32,855 nt of DNA from Alphaproteobacteria bacterium (GTDB lineage: Bacteria > Pseudomonadota > Alphaproteobacteria > ATCC43930 > CGMCC-115725): assembly GCA_030041385.1 (NCBI GenBank), contig JASHNY010000116.1:1-32855 (forward strand). Reading direction: 5' to 3'. Numbering within the stretch: position 1 is the first letter of the stretch; each line of letters opens with the position of its first letter. Below the pieces are notes generated by a model. That model did no database searches. It worked only from the letters and a program-made list of their open reading frames with translations, and was not told the DNA's origin. Of this stretch, positions 692 through 18,372 are shown in pieces. Position numbers and translations under genes: made by a program.

Positions 692-3286
<2,595 letters not shown>

Positions 3287-6023: not shown

Positions 6024-7268
6024 TCAGACCAGCGCCTTGAGGCGGGCCGGCAATTCGCCGAGCGGCACGGCCGCCTGAGCACCGCTGTCGAGGTCGCGCA
6101 AGGTCGCGACCCCGGCGGCAATCTCGTCGTCCCCGAGCAATACCGCCGCCCGAGCGCCGATGCGGTCGGCTCGCCGCATCCGGCGCTGCACATTGCCCGA
6201 ATAGCCAAGATCGACGACCAGGCCGGCATCGCGCAGGGTCTCGGCGAGCGTCAACGCCGCCGCCTCGGCCGCCTCGCCGATCGGCACCAGGGCCACCGGG
6301 CGCGGCGGCCCTGGCGGCTCGGCGATCAGCAGGGCCAGCCGTTCGATGCCGGCGGCCCAGCCGACGCCAGGCATCGCCGGCCCGCCCATCAACTCGACCA
6401 AGCCATCGTAGCGCCCGCCGGCCAGCACCGTGCCCTGCGCGCCGAGATCGGTGGTGACGAACTCGAATACCGTGTGCGTGTAGTAATCAAGGCCGCGGAC
6501 GAGGCGCGGGTTGAGCCGATAGGCGATGCCGATGCGGCCGAGCCCGTCGCGAACATGCGCAAAGAAGTCGCGCGATGCGTGATTTAGGTAGGCATCAAAC
6601 GGCGGCGCATCGGCGTTGATGCGCACATCCTCCGGGTCTTTCGAATCGAGGATGCGCAGCGGGTTGCGTTCGAGCCGGCGGCGGCTGTCTTCCGAGAGTC
6701 GCGCGTGATGTGCCGAGAAATACGACACCAGAGCGTCGCGATAGGCGGCGCGGCTTTCCGGGTCGCCGAGCGTGTTGAGCTCGAGCACGACATGCTTGGC
6801 GATGTCGAGCGCCTTGAGGATGCGCCAGCCGAGCGCGATGCATTCGATATCGGCCTGAGCCCTGGCCGCGCCGAGAATTTCGACGCCGATCTGGTGAAAC
6901 TGGCGAAAGCGGCCGCGCTGCGGCCGCTCGTAGCGGAACATCGGCCCCGAATAGAAATATTTGAGCGGCGTCGACTGGGTCAGCCCGTTCGACAGCACCG
7001 CACGCACCACCCCGGCGGTGTTTTCCGGCCGCAACGTCAGCTCTTCGCCGCCGCGGTCGGTGAAGGTGTACATCTCCTTCGAGACGATATCGGTGTGCTC
7101 GCCGATCGGCCGGGAAAACACCTCGGTGAATTCGAAGATCGGCGTGGCGATCTCGGCAAAGCCGTACAATTCGCCGAGCGTGCGCGCGGTTTCGCTGACC
7201 ATGCGGTGGCGACGCGCGGTCTCGGGCAACAAATCCTGCGTGCCGCGAGCCGGCTGCAAGGCGGGCAT
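6024..7268 (-). CDS. hisS: Histidine--tRNA ligase
   Basis: Class II aminoacyl-tRNA synthetase that charges tRNA-His. The 414-residue protein begins with the typical RGTQDLLP segment (8-15). Visible motifs are motif 2 (about 111-125, [15 protein letters not shown]), the histidine-binding segments [13 protein letters not shown] (258-270) and AGGRYDGL (283-290), and motif 3 GIERLAL (307-313). The last ~90 residues form the anticodon-binding domain. The ATG at 7268 has GAGGG about ten bases upstream. It is the first gene of a packed cluster with prfA and prmC, and the region ahead of it (7269-7438) contains palindromic repeats. Confidence 0.98.
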
Positions 7269-7290
7269 GAATGTGATTCCCTCGGCCTAT

Positions 7291-7375
7291 CGGTGTCGTC
7301 CCGGCGAACGGCGGGACCCATTCGTCAACCACTCGAACGGCGGAGAGATGGATCCCGGTTTTTGCCGGGATGACA
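7291..7375. repeat. Two short palindromes of a probable dispersed intergenic repeat
   Basis: Between hisS and purH lie two hairpins. One is GTCCCG/CGGGAC (7298-7303 and 7312-7317). The other is ATCCCGG/CCGGGAT (7352-7358 and 7365-7371), a perfect 7-bp stem with a TTTTTG loop. The second type (ATCCCGG...CCGGGATGAC) resembles small palindromic repeats scattered between genes in many alphaproteobacteria. The hairpins could also end purH transcription, whose stop is at 7439 on the minus strand. No gene is visible in the interval 7269-7438. Confidence 0.5.
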
Positions 7376-7438
7376 ACCTAATCGAACGCCGATATGGCGA
7401 TTTTCGCCCGGCTTCGCAATCGCCTTGCCGTCCTGCCG

Positions 7439-9004
7439 TCAATGCCGGAAATGCCTGAGGCCGGAAAAGACCATCGCGATCCCGGCCTTGTCGGCGGCGG
7501 CGATGACTTCCTCGTCACGGCGCGAGCCGCCCGGTTGGATCGCCGCGGTGATGCCGGCGGCAATGCCCGCTTCGAGCCCGTCGGCGAACGGAAAGAATGC
7601 ATCGGAGGCGAGCACCGAGCCGCGGATCGGCAGGCCGAACTCGGCCGCCTTGGCGGCGGCGATCTTGACGCTGTCGACACGGCTCGGCTGTCCGGCGCCG
7701 ATCCCGACCGTGGCGCCATCCTTGGCGAACACGATCGCATTCGACTTGACATGCTTGGCGACGATGTCGGCGAACAGCAGATCGGCGATCTCCGCCGCCG
7801 TCGGCGCCCGCCTGGTGACGATCTTCAAGTCCGCCGGTGCCGCCCGGAGGCGATCGCGCCCCTGCAGCAGAAGCCCGCCCGAAACCGAGCGCAATGTCCA
7901 CCCCGGCGCCTTCGGGTCGGGCATGCTGCCGGTTGCCAGCACGCGCAGGGCCCGGCGCGGCGCCAGCAGTTCCGCCGCTGCCGGCTCGATCTCCGGCGCG
8001 ATCACGACCTCGACGAACAATTCGGCGATCGCCGCGGCAGTCTCGGCGTCGAGCGCGCGGTTGACCGCGACGATGCCGCCGAAGGCGCTGACCGGGTCGC
8101 AGGCCAATGCCCGCACCCAGGCCTCATGCAAATTTGCCCCGGTGGCGACACCGCACGGATTGGCATGCTTGACGATGACCACCGCCGGCGCGTTCTCGAA
8201 TTCGGAAACCGCCTCGAATGCCGCGTCGGCGTCGCTGTAATTGTTGTACGAGAGTTCCCGCCCCTGCACCTGGCGCGCCGAGGCCACGCCGGGGCGCCGC
8301 TCGCCCGTGCGATACAGCGCGCCCTGCTGGTGCGGGTTCTCGCCATAGCGGGTGCGGTCGGCAAGGCGGGCGGAAAGCACCAGCGTATCGGGGAATTCGC
8401 CCCCCTCCTCATGCGCCATCCACGCGGCGATTGCTGCGTCGTAGGAAGCGGTCGCGGCAAACGCCTTGTGCGCGAGACGACGCCGCATCGCGTCGCCAAC
8501 CCCGCCGTGCTGAGCCGCCATTTCTGCGAGAATGGGATCGTAATCGGCCGGGTCGGTCACCACGGTGACGAATTCGTGGTTTTTGGCGCCGGCGCGGAGC
8601 AAGGCGACGCCGCCGATATCGATATTCTCGATACATTCGGCGTAACCGGCCCCCGCGGCCACCGTTTCGGCGAACGGGTAGAGGTTGACCACCAGCAGGT
8701 CGATCTCGGCGATGTTGTGGGCCGACAGTGCGGCGCGATGGTCGGGGCGGTCGCGCCGCGCCAGGAGCCCGCCGTGGATCGCCGGATGCAGGGTCTTGAC
8801 CCGGCCGTCAAGCATCTCGGGAAACCCGGTCGCCGCGGCGACCTCGGTCACCGCCATCCCCGCCTCGACCAGCACTCTCGCCGTACCCCCGGTCGACACC
8901 AGCGCAATGCCCCGGGCCGCGAGTTGGCGGGCAAACGGCACCAGCCCCGTCTTGTCGCTGACGGAGATCAGGGCGCGGCGGATCGGGCGCGGCGAGGCAG
9001 TCAT
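7439..9004 (-). CDS. purH: Bifunctional AICAR transformylase/IMP cyclohydrolase
   Basis: Carries out the last two steps of de novo purine synthesis: formylation of AICAR by 10-formyl-THF, then ring closure to IMP. The chosen start, ATG 9004 ([20 protein letters not shown]), gives 521 residues, the usual length; the open frame continues 26 codons further upstream but that part lacks family similarity and would overlap the preceding gene. The cyclohydrolase domain (about 1-145) has STGGT (38-42) and the [10 protein letters not shown] segment (65-74). The transformylase domain carries [10 protein letters not shown] (251-260) and KHANPCG (279-285), which includes the catalytic Lys-His pair. The C-terminus (GLRHFRH) is typical. 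It lies 19 bases after the glycosyltransferase gene on the same strand. Confidence 0.97.
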
Positions 9005-11907: not shown

Positions 11908-13200
11908 CTACTCGCGCTTGACCAGCCGCGCTCCATAGAACCCGTCAACCCCGTCGTACTCGCCGAAATGACACGGCAATGTGCGCAGATCTCCTTCGGC
12001 CGTGATCCATTCGGCGGGCACGCCGATCTCGGCCGGATCGAGCGGTCGGCGTTCGAGCGGTGCTCCGCCCTCCAATAGCGCGGCCACCCGCCGCGGCCCC
12101 TCCTCGGGCTCGAGCGAACAGGTGCAATAGACCAGCGTCCCGCCTGGGCGCAGCATGTCGACCGCAGCCAGCAGCAGGTTTTCCTGTACGGCGGAGAGTC
12201 GGCTCACATCCTCCGGCTGCTTCAGGTGCAAGACATCGGGATGGCGACGGATGGCCCCGGTCGCCGTGCACGGCGCGTCGAGCAGCACCGCGTCGGCAGG
12301 CTGGGCCGGACGCCAATTCAACGCATCCGCCGCGACCGCCGACACCGGCAGTCCCAGGCGCTTCAGATTGCCGATCAGCCGTTCGAGCCGGCGCGCCGAT
12401 CGATCCACCGCCGTCACTCGTGCGCCGGCATCGGCGAGCTGCGCGGTCTTCCCACCGGGCGCCGCGCACATATCGATGACATCGAGGCCGGCGACCGGCC
12501 CGAACAGGCGCGCCGGAAGCGCCGCCGCCGCATCCTGAATCCACCAAGCCCCCTCGGCATATCCGGGAAGGGCAATCACCGAGCCGCCGGCGGCGCGCCG
12601 CAAGGTGCCGGTGGGCAGCCGCCTGGCGTGAAGCTGCTCGCACCATTCCCCGCCATCGGTGCGCAGGGTCAAGTCGAGCGGCGCCTCCTTCAGGTGCGCG
12701 GTGGCGATCGCGTGCGCGAGATCCTCGCCATAGGCGCGGCTCCATGACCGCCATAGCCAGTCCGGCGTGTTGAGCCGGCCGGGGTTGTGCCGCTCGATCC
12801 GCTCCGGACCCTCGACGCTCAAGCGCCGCAGCACGGCGTTGACGAGGCCCTTGTGCGACAGGAACCCGCGGTGATGAGCAAGATCGACGCTGGTTGCGAC
12901 CGCCGCATGAGGCGGCGTGCGCAGAAACAGCAACTGCGCGATGCCAAGCCTCAAGATATCGTGGACGGTCGCCGCGCGGGCCGCCAGCGGCGCGTTGAGG
13001 CAACTCGCGATCAGCGCGTCGATCTGGCCGAGCCGACGCAACACGGTCGCGACCAGCAGCCGGGCAAAGGCGCGGTCGCGCACCGACAACTCGGCCATCG
13101 TGGTGCTGTCCTCGATGGCATCGTCGAGCGGGTGCTTGCGCCGCAGCACGGCACCCAGCAAATCGAGCGCTACCTGGCGCGCGGAGGGGATTGCAGACAT
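11908..13200 (-). CDS. rsmB: RsmB-family 16S rRNA (cytosine-C5) methyltransferase
   Basis: SAM-dependent RNA methyltransferase of 430 residues when started at ATG 13200 (MSAIPSARQVALDLL). The first ~130 residues form a NusB-like helical RNA-binding domain; the C-terminal domain is the NOL1/NOP2/Sun fold, with SAM motif CAAPGGK (245-251) and the two cysteines of this family, DAPCTATG (C311) and YCTCSLEPEE (C361), one forming the covalent RNA intermediate and the other releasing it. An earlier in-frame ATG (13227) exists only because of the tandem duplication at 13202-13253, so I prefer 13200. Neither start has a good ribosome-binding site. The gene is divergent from the DUF1674 gene, a common alphaproteobacterial pairing. 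Confidence 0.92.
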   Translation of the reverse strand: MSAIPSARQVALDLLGAVLRRKHPLDDAIEDSTTMAELSVRDRAFARLLVATVLRRLGQIDALIASCLNAPLAARAATVHDILRLGIAQLLFLRTPPHAAVATSVDLAHHRGFLSHKGLVNAVLRRLSVEGPERIERHNPGRLNTPDWLWRSWSRAYGEDLAHAIATAHLKEAPLDLTLRTDGGEWCEQLHARRLPTGTLRRAAGGSVIALPGYAEGAWWIQDAAAALPARLFGPVAGLDVIDMCAAPGGKTAQLADAGARVTAVDRSARRLERLIGNLKRLGLPVSAVAADALNWRPAQPADAVLLDAPCTATGAIRRHPDVLHLKQPEDVSRLSAVQENLLLAAVDMLRPGGTLVYCTCSLEPEEGPRRVAALLEGGAPLERRPLDPAEIGVPAEWITAEGDLRTLPCHFGEYDGVDGFYGARLVKRE

Positions 13201-13201
13201 C

Positions 13202-13253
13202 AACGTTCGGTTATGCCTTCGCCCCATAACGTTCGGTTATGCCTTCGCCCCGT
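13202..13253. repeat. 26-bp tandem duplication at the rsmB start
   Basis: Positions 13202-13227 and 13228-13253 are identical at 25 of 26 bases; the only difference is A13226 versus G13252. Each unit starts AACGTTCGGTTATG. The second unit runs into a small inverted repeat, GCCCCG/CGGGGC (13247-13260). The duplication covers the leader of the minus-strand rsmB gene and supplies an extra in-frame ATG. Confidence 0.85.
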
Positions 13254-15318: not shown

Positions 15319-16704
15319 CTAAGCCGAAGGCGCCCCGCCCTCGCCCAAATCCCAATAAATCCCCGTCATTACCCTGAGTCCTTCGCGCGCGACCGGAGCG
15401 AGCAGGTGCTCGTTGGGGGCGTGCTGCGAGCACGAAGCGTAGGAGTGCGGGACCCAGATCGTCGGCAATCCGAGATCGTGCGCGAAAATATCGTTGGGCA
15501 ACGAGCCGCCTAGATTCGGCAGGATCGCCGGGCGCTTGCCGGTCGTCGCGACGATCGAGCGGGCGGCCCAGCGCACCCAGTCATGGTCGGGATCGAGCCG
15601 GGTCGCCGGGAAATACGCCTTCTTCCACGGCTCGATCCGCACCATTGGAAAGCCGTGCGCATCGAGGTGGCGGCGCAGGGCCGGCATGAACCCCTCCGGG
15701 TCGACGCCGACGACGAAGCGGATCTGGCAGGTCGCGGTCGCCTTGGGCGGGATCGCGTTGACCGGGTTCTCGGGGTTGCCGGTGGTGAAGGCAAGAATCT
15801 CGAAGCTGCACCAGCCGAACACCTTCTCGCTCGGCGTCAATCCGGGCTCGCCCCAATCGGGGTCGATTTCGGGCGCGTCCTCTCCGCCCTCCACCGTGCA
15901 GTCGGCGAGCGCGATGCGCACCGAGTTCGGCATGTGGCTCGGCACCCATTCCCTGATCCTTATCGCGCCCTTCTCGCTGGCGATCGTCGCCAGCGCGTGG
16001 GCCAGGATCACGCCGGGATTGGCCAGCAGACCGCCCCAGTTGCCGGAATGGTGGCCGCCCTCGCGCAATTCGACGACCAGGTCGAAATTCATCGCGCCGC
16101 GGGCACCGAGAAAGATCGTCGGCCGCTCGGGCGCCAGGCGCGGCCCGTCGGAGGCGATCAGCACGTCGGCGGCGAGCTTGTCCTTGTGGTTGCGGCAGAT
16201 TTCGCGCAACCCGGGCGAGCCGATCTCCTCGCCGGTCTCGATCAGGTACTTGGCGTTGAAGCCGAGCCGGCCGCGGGTCTGCAATACGGCGCCAAGCGCG
16301 GCGAAATTGATCGAATGCTGGCCCTTGTTGTCGGCGGTGCCGCGGCCGTAGAGCCGGTCGCCGCGCCGGGTCAATTCCCATGGCGACAGCCCTTCGTGCC
16401 ATTGCGGTTCAAGCCCGCGGATCACGTCGCCATGGCCGTAGCCGAGCACGGTGACCGCTGCGCCCTCGTCGCGCTCGGCGATCAGCGCCGGGCCCCCGCG
16501 CACCGGGTTGTCGACGATCTCGGCGGAAAAACCAAGCCGCTCGAGGCTCGGGGCGATCTCGTCCGAGAGGTAGGCGGCCAGGGTCGGGCCCCGCCCCTCG
16601 ACCTGGCTTTCGGTGGCGATCGCGACCCGGCGAGCGAGATCGGCGGCAAATTGGCCCTCGTCGAAATGGGCTTCGACGGCGGCGATCGCAGCTTCGCGCG
16701 TCAT
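15319..16704 (-). CDS. M20 family metallopeptidase
   Basis: Zinc-dependent peptidase or amidohydrolase of 461 residues. Metal and catalytic residues of the M20 family are all visible: H91 and D93 in GYGHGD, bridging D125 in GRGTADNKGQ, the general base pair E159-E160 in ETGEE, D186 in ASDGP, and H433 in APNEHLL near the C-terminus. The insert after about residue 205 (REGGHHSGNW) starts the dimerisation lid domain. ATG 16704 has AGGAG at six bases. The frame stays open far upstream, giving an apparent 851-residue protein, but that part is the antisense of the paraoxonase-like gene and is rejected. The closest look is to M20 dipeptidase/carboxypeptidase types; the substrate is not known. Confidence 0.92.
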   Translation of the reverse strand: MTREAAIAAVEAHFDEGQFAADLARRVAIATESQVEGRGPTLAAYLSDEIAPSLERLGFSAEIVDNPVRGGPALIAERDEGAAVTVLGYGHGDVIRGLEPQWHEGLSPWELTRRGDRLYGRGTADNKGQHSINFAALGAVLQTRGRLGFNAKYLIETGEEIGSPGLREICRNHKDKLAADVLIASDGPRLAPERPTIFLGARGAMNFDLVVELREGGHHSGNWGGLLANPGVILAHALATIASEKGAIRIREWVPSHMPNSVRIALADCTVEGGEDAPEIDPDWGEPGLTPSEKVFGWCSFEILAFTTGNPENPVNAIPPKATATCQIRFVVGVDPEGFMPALRRHLDAHGFPMVRIEPWKKAYFPATRLDPDHDWVRWAARSIVATTGKRPAILPNLGGSLPNDIFAHDLGLPTIWVPHSYASCSQHAPNEHLLAPVAREGLRVMTGIYWDLGEGGAPSA

Positions 16705-16845: not shown

Positions 16846-16914
16846 TTGAAAAAGGGGAAATAAACCAGCTGGTGCAATAATAGTCGATAAATAATCCAAA
16901 TAATCTTGGGAGGG
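16846..16914 (+). promoter_or_regulatory. AT-rich divergent promoter region before the paraoxonase-like gene
   Basis: The 216-base gap between the divergent M20 and paraoxonase-like genes contains the most AT-rich stretch I noticed. It holds a TTGAAA box (16846-16851), two copies of AAATAATC nine bases apart (16889-16896, 16898-16905), and then a strong ribosome-binding site GGGAGGG (16909-16915 region) just before ATG 16921. No -10 box is well spaced from TTGAAA, so the exact promoter is not assigned. Confidence 0.35.
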
Positions 16915-16920
16915 AGCGAG

Positions 16921-17997
16921 ATGAAGGCGATCGTCGTTGCGGCTCTCTTGATTGCCGCCGCCATCGGCACCAGCACGACCGCGGCAGCAGCCGAGCCGTG
17001 CAATCCCGCCGGCAAGCTCGATTTCATTTGCGGGCCGCTCAACACCGAAGACCTGGTGCAAGTGCCGGGGACGCAGTGGATCATCGCCAGCGGCATGGAC
17101 GGGGGCGGCGCCGGGTCGCACGGCGCGCTGCATCTGGTCAGCGCCGAGAGCAAGTCGTGGAAGGTGCTGTTTCCTGGCACCAACCCGCGGGTGCAGCCCG
17201 ACAAGACGACCTATGCCGATTGCCCGGGCGCGCCCGACCTCGGCAAGTTCTCGGCCCACGGGATCAATCTGCGGCCGGGCGCCAATGGCGGCCCGGATAC
17301 GCTCTACGTCGTCAACCATGGCGGTCGCGAGTCGATCGAGATTTTCGCGCTCGACGCCAAAGGGGCGGAACCCGCAATCACCTGGATCGGCTGCGCGGTG
17401 ATGCCGGCTCATACCTGGCCCAACGCCGTGGCGCCGACCCCGGAAGGCGGCTTCGTCGTCACCGACATGTTCGACCCGAAGGACCCGAAGGCGCCTAACC
17501 TGATGGCGGCCGGCAAAAACACCGGCGCAGTTTACGAGTGGCGTCCCGGACAGGGCTTCGCGCGCATCCCCGACAGCGAGATGTCGGGCAACAACGGCAT
17601 CGAGGTCTCGCGCGACGGCAAAAGGATCTACGTCGCAGCGTGGGGGAACAGGGCGGTGGTGCGCCTGTCCCGGGGTGACGGGCCGACCCGGCGAGAGACG
17701 CTGCGCGCGGGCTTCCTCGTCGACAATTTGCGCTGGGCGCCGAACGGCGAACTGATCGCGGGCGGGCAGGCCGTGCCGGTGAAGCAGGTCTTCGGCTGCT
17801 TTCAGAGCAAAGCCCGACGCTGCACCCAGGCCTGGCGCCTCGACGCCTGGGATACCGCGGCAATGAAACTGCACCCGCTGGTCAGCATGGCCGGCAATCC
17901 CGAATTCGGCGATGCCACGACCGGATTGCAGATCGGCAGCGAAATGTTCGTCGGCACCTTTCGCGGCGACCGGATCGCCTATTTCGCGCTGAAATAG
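16921..17997 (+). CDS. Secreted paraoxonase/arylesterase-like six-bladed beta-propeller hydrolase (SMP-30/gluconolactonase superfamily)
   Basis: A 358-residue protein with a Sec signal peptide (1 to about 24, cut near AAAA-EPC), so periplasmic or secreted. Its conserved residues line up with those of paraoxonase PON1: E43 in NTEDL, H113 in SAHGINL, H133 in VVNHGGRESIE, N168 in WPNAVAP, N225 in NNGIEVSRDG, and D268-N269 in VDNLRW. These correspond to the PON1 calcium ligands E53, N168, N224, D269 and N270 and to the His pair H115/H134. A calcium-dependent lactonase or esterase is therefore likely; the natural substrate is unknown. Several cysteines (27, 37, 101, 158, 293, 301) could form disulfides. 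ATG 16921 follows a GGGAGGG site; an upstream TTG at 16906 is not used. It stands alone, divergent from the M20 gene. Confidence 0.82.
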   Translation: MKAIVVAALLIAAAIGTSTTAAAAEPCNPAGKLDFICGPLNTEDLVQVPGTQWIIASGMDGGGAGSHGALHLVSAESKSWKVLFPGTNPRVQPDKTTYADCPGAPDLGKFSAHGINLRPGANGGPDTLYVVNHGGRESIEIFALDAKGAEPAITWIGCAVMPAHTWPNAVAPTPEGGFVVTDMFDPKDPKAPNLMAAGKNTGAVYEWRPGQGFARIPDSEMSGNNGIEVSRDGKRIYVAAWGNRAVVRLSRGDGPTRRETLRAGFLVDNLRWAPNGELIAGGQAVPVKQVFGCFQSKARRCTQAWRLDAWDTAAMKLHPLVSMAGNPEFGDATTGLQIGSEMFVGTFRGDRIAYFALK

Positions 17998-18006
17998 CCG
18001 ACCCGC

Positions 18007-18372
18007 TCAGTGGCGGCGGACCGAACCGGAGGTCGGCGTCCACGCCGGCGGATCGCTGGCCGGGAAGCTTTCCTCGGATGCCCGGCGCACCGGGTCGGCT
18101 TCGGGTGTTGCGGTCCGCCGCCGCGCTGGCCGGCGCGGCGGCGGTGCGTCGCGATCGGGCCGCTCGCCCAACAGCCCGGCCTTGACCGGACAGAAACCGC
18201 TGGCGCCGCGCCAGATCAGCGCCGCGGCGCCGAGCCCGAGCAGCATCGGTCCGAGCACGGCGCGCCCAAGCACCCGCGCCAGCAAGACCGTGCCGAGCCC
18301 GATCGATACCGCGCGCTCGGCGGTGCCGAGATTGATCGGCATCCTGGTTATCGTGCCTGAGCTCTCAGCCAT
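18007..18372 (-). CDS. DUF2892 (YgaP-type) inner membrane protein
   Basis: A 121-residue protein. Residues about 12-70 match the DUF2892 domain: an N-terminal MPINLGTAERAVSIGLG segment, two hydrophobic helices (about 21-34 and 39-54) and a conserved FCPVKAGLLG with its cysteine. The C-terminal 50 residues are a basic linker (PPRRPARRR) and then ASEESFPASDPPAW, a short motif that recurs at the C-termini of other small alphaproteobacterial proteins. ATG 18372 has GGAG about eight bases upstream; the Met at residue 11 is an alternative start, nearer to the usual DUF2892 start. It converges with the paraoxonase-like gene nine bases away. Function is unknown. Confidence 0.82.
   Translation of the reverse strand: MAESSGTITRMPINLGTAERAVSIGLGTVLLARVLGRAVLGPMLLGLGAAALIWRGASGFCPVKAGLLGERPDRDAPPPRRPARRRTATPEADPVRRASEESFPASDPPAWTPTSGSVRRH

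Follow-up and report, generated by a model that had tools for sequence, protein, structure and literature searches.

Mammalian paraoxonase 1 (PON1; PDB entries 1V04, 3SRG and 9R0Q) is a calcium-dependent six-bladed β-propeller. Excerpts of published accounts give N224, N270, N168, D269 and E53 as the ligands of its catalytic calcium (PMC7766523, and likewise PMC7916636 and PMC7915308), Asp54 and Asp169 as those of its structural calcium (PMC7916636), and C42-C353 as its end-to-end disulfide (PMC7766523, PMC7915308). PON1 retains its signal sequence, and exchange of His115, of the His115/His134 pair, for Trp lowers its lactonase activity and raises its paraoxonase activity, as described in an excerpt of PMC7766523. 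Bacterial PONs are also known, and one of them, PONX_OCCAL, hydrolyses acyl-homoserine lactones (AHLs) according to an excerpt of PMC9878147. More distant relatives, namely the SGL/SMP-30/gluconolactonase family (PF08450), DFPase and the DrSOD propeller, likewise hold a calcium at the center of a six-bladed propeller, which in DrSOD is held by Glu, Asn, Asn and Asp (excerpt of PMC12362111).

We have analyzed a PON-like gene in a 32,855-nucleotide window, the entire stretch of DNA under study, which is contig JASHNY010000116.1 of an Alphaproteobacteria bacterium (GenBank assembly GCA_030041385.1). Positions 16921-17997 of the plus strand form an open frame that begins with an ATG at 16921 and encodes a 358-residue protein (P0001) plus a stop codon. 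An artefactual reading frame was considered and rejected in view of relatives with 61-71% identity and of a confident structural model. The features of the locus are given below, with conservation counted over 29 family rows (near-duplicates L013 and L014 both included) and 14 canonical PON rows; the low-scoring frames L027_2425f and L052_125r were left out.

15319 up to the start codon ATG, placed at 16704 or 16719, minus strand: neighboring gene for a divergent M20-type peptidase (family search)
16908..16916, plus strand: Shine-Dalgarno-like GGGAGGGAG before the ATG (read directly from the sequence)
16921..17997, plus strand: P0001, PON-like protein with a predicted six-bladed β-propeller (open reading frame, AlphaFold2 model, Foldseek, VIA-align)
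16921..16992, plus strand: putative Sec signal peptide, residues 1-24, cut after AAAA (read from the sequence; low-confidence helix at residues 3-14 of the model)
16999..17031, plus strand: C27 to C37, probable disulfide (pair in 21, neither in 6 and a single Cys in 2 of 29 family rows)
17047..17052, plus strand: E43-D44, putative ligands of the catalytic calcium (PON1 E53) and the structural calcium (PON1 D54) by profile alignments with PON1, each in 29/29 family and 14/14 canonical PON rows
17221..17394, plus strand: C101 to C158, probable disulfide (pair in 27, neither in 0 and C158 only in 2 of 29)
17257..17259, plus strand: H113, at PON1 H115 (family rows H 15, R 10, Q 2, S 1, A 1 of 29)
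17317..17319, plus strand: H133, at PON1 H134 (kept in 27/29 family rows)
17422..17424, plus strand: N168, putative catalytic-calcium ligand, at PON1 N168 (kept in 28/29)
17425..17427, plus strand: A169, where PON1 has the structural-calcium ligand D169 (family rows A 9, S 15, G 2, N 1, E 1, D 1; canonical PON rows D 12, G 1, A 1)
17593..17595, plus strand: N225, putative catalytic-calcium ligand, at PON1 N224 (kept in 28/29)
17722..17727, plus strand: D268-N269, putative catalytic-calcium ligands, at PON1 D269 and N270 (each in 29/29)
17797..17823, plus strand: C293 to C301, probable disulfide (pair in 26, neither in 1 and a single Cys in 2 of 29)
18007-18372, minus strand: neighboring gene for a YgaP-like membrane protein (family search)

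The three window neighbors that were scanned against protein families, the M20 peptidase, a peptide-type ABC binding protein and the YgaP-like protein, do not suggest any lactone. Searching the window for Rfam families and tRNA genes gave no match, a promoter scan found nothing, and the single terminator-like site scored below the chance mean. Elsewhere in the window, a 24-bp direct repeat occurs in two perfect copies 26 bp apart (13202-13251), at and just before the start of a minus-strand gene (11908-13227); the genome holds no further exact copy.

Profile searches were needed to recognize PON1 as a relative, since a single-sequence phmmer search of the PDB with P0001 gave PON1 only at an E value of 0.045. 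A profile of P0001 and 14 relatives, built without PON1, had PON1 as its best PDB match (E 4.9e-12, profile positions 37-347), and a 28-member family profile again returned it as the best solved relative (E 5.6e-15). The AlphaFold2 model, computed from an alignment of 34 sequences (22 family and 12 canonical PON rows), reached a pLDDT of 93.3 and a pTM of 0.90. Its ten best Foldseek matches, with E values between 6.8e-15 and 7.6e-14, were without exception entries for PON1, and VIA-align superposed it on PON1 with a Z score of 35.4 (rmsd 2.9 over 301 residues, 18% identity, TMt 0.77). Next came strictosidine synthase (Z 28.3), a related fold with a weaker fold match than PON1 and a partial profile match only, followed by other six-bladed propellers (DFPase and Pizza designs among them) at about 25. 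A canonical bacterial PON obtained in the same searches served as the control; its model (pLDDT 89.0) superposed on PON1 with a Z score of 45.9 (rmsd 1.8, 321 residues, 30% identity). P0001 is thus clearly closer to PON1 than other folds of the superfamily are, and clearly further from it than a true PON. The original prediction had proposed superposition on PON1 and comparison with the Arylesterase and SGL models as checks; the former agreed with it, placing the propeller nearest PON1, and the latter left both models below their cut-offs (PF01731, 11.7 bits against 21.3; PF08450, 25.6 against 26.3). An NCBIfam scan of P0001 found no match, so that the protein stays below the cut-offs of all models in both Pfam and NCBIfam, and other family members gave weak propeller-type matches to NCBIfam only. 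The identity of an ordinary SMP-30 gluconolactonase was considered and rejected, PON1 being far the better match in both fold and profile.

All seven residues to which an active site had been ascribed (E43, H113, H133, N168, N225, D268 and N269) were found at their places in P0001, and in the 15-sequence profile alignment, read by eye, they face E53, H115, H134, N168, N224, D269 and N270 of PON1. In the model, strand 45-47 begins two residues after E43, while H113 falls in strand 112-118, N168 in 167-172, N225 in 224-229 and D268/N269 in 266-272, a placement of the ligands and H113 that would match the mouth of the propeller tunnel. The putative calcium center resembles that of SGL, DFPase and DrSOD, but P0001 has two additions to it: the His pair and, following the Asp, a second Asn as in PON. 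Judged by these residues, the catalytic-calcium site of P0001 is whole and the structural-calcium site is half gone: the Asp54 equivalent is present, whereas the position of Asp169 is Ala in P0001 and non-acidic in 27 of the 29 family rows, while 12 of the 14 canonical bacterial PON rows have Asp there. The description of the site as complete and PON1-like therefore held for the five catalytic ligands and the His pair and failed for the structural calcium; the residues listed cover only the former, and a PON1-like center with two calcium ions is not supported. H113 and H133 are both kept in all 14 canonical rows, while H113 is lost in 14 of the 29 family rows, and for that reason the dyad chemistry of PON1 is not common to the family. 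Departures go further in single relatives. In L006 (genome G008; 1103-2182, plus strand), a family member with 61% identity, Q113, H168 and K225 replace three of the seven active-site residues while the rest of the protein is kept, so that this is possibly an inactive or re-purposed copy; L015 has S113 and R133, and L054 has A113 and L133.

The expectation of a signal peptide with several cysteines, and hence of probable export, was confirmed as far as reading by eye allows: the N-terminus, MKAIVVAALLIAAAIGTSTTAAAA followed by EPC, reads as a Sec signal with likely cleavage after residue 24. This putatively cleavable signal differs from that of PON1, and the canonical bacterial PON that was modeled has an N-terminal membrane-type helix instead. 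P0001 contains six cysteines (27, 37, 101, 158, 293 and 301). Because they mostly occur as pairs across the family, their pattern suggests three disulfides, 27/37, 101/158 and 293/301. No cysteine lies beyond residue 301, and a counterpart of C42-C353 is absent from P0001, whereas the canonical bacterial PONs have invariant cysteines near both ends (12 aligned rows).

The gene is distributed patchily, being absent from all seven other genomes of its genus and present in four of 43 genomes of the order, its own included. A search of the phylum found relatives in at least four of 398 genomes, again counting its own. At class level, a profile search (E up to 1e-15, sorted by score) matched at least 15 of 385 genomes, own included, of which four hold family members and 11 canonical PONs; a search (E up to 1e-40) of f7, the taxonomic family of one relative, matched at least 13 of 249 genomes. 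Up to five candidates per genome were scored in the phylum and class searches, and up to eight in f7. Nine of 72,556 plasmid records matched and seven were taken into the analysis, hits H7 and H9 being left out as second strains of species already included. The plasmid members are annotated as hypothetical protein where they are annotated at all. A contig search added two loci with relatives.

A phylogenetic tree of 29 family and 11 canonical rows was constructed with a midpoint root, leaving out three near-duplicate canonical rows and PON1. The two groups are split by a branch with 100/100 support. Of the 37 inner branches, 16 are open, and the row of L009 is long. Arylesterase (E up to 1) is matched by all 12 canonical PONs scanned (best 1.4e-17) and by six of 28 family members (best 1.9e-6), so for this model the border between the groups is not sharp; SGL is matched at the same threshold by 18 of 28 family members (best 2.1e-8). 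The profile of the canonical bacterial PONs matches PON1 at E 3.4e-71 and the family profile at E 2.3e-35. The canonical bacterial PONs (L021-L031, and PONX_OCCAL in print) share the catalytic ligands and the His pair with P0001. We therefore assign P0001 to a sister subfamily of PON: its family forms a separate clade yet matches the canonical PONs profile to profile, and P0001 itself stays below the Pfam and NCBIfam cut-offs. Membership of PON proper is not supported, in view of this clade, the Arylesterase score and the missing end-to-end disulfide.

Gene neighborhoods were compared by clustering neighboring genes over 29 loci with BLAST and naming one or a few members of each cluster by family search. 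The stretches ranged from 5.3 to 14.5 kb, the window itself apart. The ten rows with Arg in place of H113 form one clade (100/98), six of them from f7 genomes and four from Novosphingobium and Sphingobium plasmids. Genes of one or more of four kinds (carboxylesterase, BD-FAE-type esterase, QuiC-like 3-dehydroshikimate dehydratase, shikimate dehydrogenase) occur in eight of these ten loci and in none of the 19 other loci, the window's included. The gene caller missed the PON-like gene, and probably other genes, in the window and in L015, L057 and L064; the L015 record's own gene table holds no quinate-type gene. In L039, the member tested, the QuiC-like protein scored 681 bits (cut-off 1200) and the shikimate dehydrogenase 398.5 bits (cut-off 235). 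Loci L039 (435-12825) and L016 (1886-12820) combine a carboxylesterase, a BD-FAE esterase, a DUF3237 protein, the PON-like protein, an MFS transporter, a TonB receptor and a shikimate dehydrogenase, with the QuiC-like gene in L039 as well, and look like a quinate/shikimate-ester utilization cluster. The link between the Arg and such loci is suggestive only, since one clade represents one evolutionary event. Two adjoining DUF34/NIF3-type genes lie within a locus of this type in L060 (8032-9832, minus strand). In L063, an SGL-family gluconolactonase-like gene (6999-8207, minus strand; 116 bits, cut-off 26.3) lies directly upstream of the PON-like gene, placing two calcium-propeller relatives side by side.

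Other members have different neighbors. PQQ dehydrogenases occur near L040, L041 and L061, and the two tested (L040, L041) match the glucose/quinate/shikimate family best, below cut-off. The PON-like genes of the three closest relatives are followed by one for an Amidohydro_2 protein (one tested, the rest assigned by cluster), of which the genome of P0001 has a likely orthologue on another contig (70% identity). The view that the setting offers no hint of a substrate thus holds for the window but fails for the family, whose other members are found in quinate/shikimate-type loci, close to PQQ dehydrogenases or ahead of the Amidohydro_2 gene. Among the open-licence papers listed by searches on lactonases of this kind in quinate-type loci and on bacterial PONs, none describes the P0001 subfamily in its title or the start of its abstract, and no biochemistry of any family member was found.

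We hypothesize, with a probability of about 70%, that P0001 is an exported, PON-homologous propeller acting as a calcium-dependent hydrolase of lactones or esters, a member of a sister subfamily whose substrate is unproven; the original suggestion of a calcium-dependent lactonase is thus likely in kind, for a putative lactonase/esterase. The protein would be exported to the periplasm and hold one catalytic Ca2+ at the mouth of the central tunnel of its six-bladed propeller through E43, N168, N225, D268 and N269. A water molecule activated by the H113/H133 pair would attack the carbonyl group of the substrate, a lactone or activated ester, with the Ca2+ stabilizing the oxyanion. Since Ala stands in place of Asp169, the structural Ca2+ that PON1 has as its second ion is probably missing here or bound in another way, and the subfamily-specific disulfides may take over part of its stabilizing role. 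A likely job would be the opening of lactones and esters met in the catabolism of plant-type cyclic acids and sugars.

Narrower functions are less probable. P0001 could, as an esterase or lactonase, act chiefly on plant compounds of the quinate/shikimate type, such as acyl-quinates or quinic acid lactones, as the neighbors of the Arg-bearing relatives, the PQQ dehydrogenases of L040 and L041 and a QuiC-like gene on another contig of its own genome (700 bits, cut-off 1200; 53-54% identical to the QuiC-like genes of the Arg-type loci) would suggest. We regard this as rather unlikely: the association comes from that single clade and vanishes in the loci that lack the Arg, the closest relatives adjoin the Amidohydro_2 gene instead, and the QuiC model also matched four of 14 control genomes, none over cut-off. 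Moreover, a TIGR03074 PQQ dehydrogenase was not found in the organism's own genome, with E. coli as positive control, which argues against a direct link to such dehydrogenases here. Quorum quenching by opening of AHLs, as in PONX_OCCAL, is possible and agrees with the presence of both His residues that all canonical bacterial PON rows keep, but P0001 stands outside their clade and the three window neighbors tested are not quorum genes. Nothing points to AHLs in particular, and we consider this function improbable. A LuxI search matched neither the organism's own genome nor any control genome, and so has no bearing on the question.

Loss of hydrolysis, with the propeller serving another reaction or a binding role, has precedents in fold. 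Strictosidine synthase, the next closest solved structure, is a propeller-superfamily enzyme that is not a hydrolase, and Diels-Alderases, by their titles among the fold matches, are further non-hydrolases. L006, L015 and L054 show that active-site residues can be lost within the family. Even so, a non-hydrolase need not obviously keep five calcium ligands and both His residues, all intact in P0001, and this reading appears quite improbable to us. A hydrolase of lactones or esters therefore remains our preferred explanation. Within it, we tentatively offer, as a conjecture more likely wrong than right, that P0001 and its relatives form a separate PON-like subfamily of bacteria, working with one calcium and disulfides of its own, one branch of which swapped the equivalent of His115 for Arg on joining a quinate/shikimate-ester degradation locus.

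If that is true, the Arg branch would be a natural counterpart of the laboratory change at His115 that switches PON1 activity, and it is this effect of the change in PON1 that makes the natural His-to-Arg exchange of interest. Because bacterial PONs, including an AHL-opening one, are already known (excerpt of PMC9878147), the general picture is unchanged; what is new is a variant subfamily beside PON. By keeping the catalytic-calcium site with the structural site half lost, the subfamily provides enzymes for testing the need of the second calcium, and the natural exchange of a key His in a clade with a recognizable catabolic locus provides enzymes for testing the substrate.
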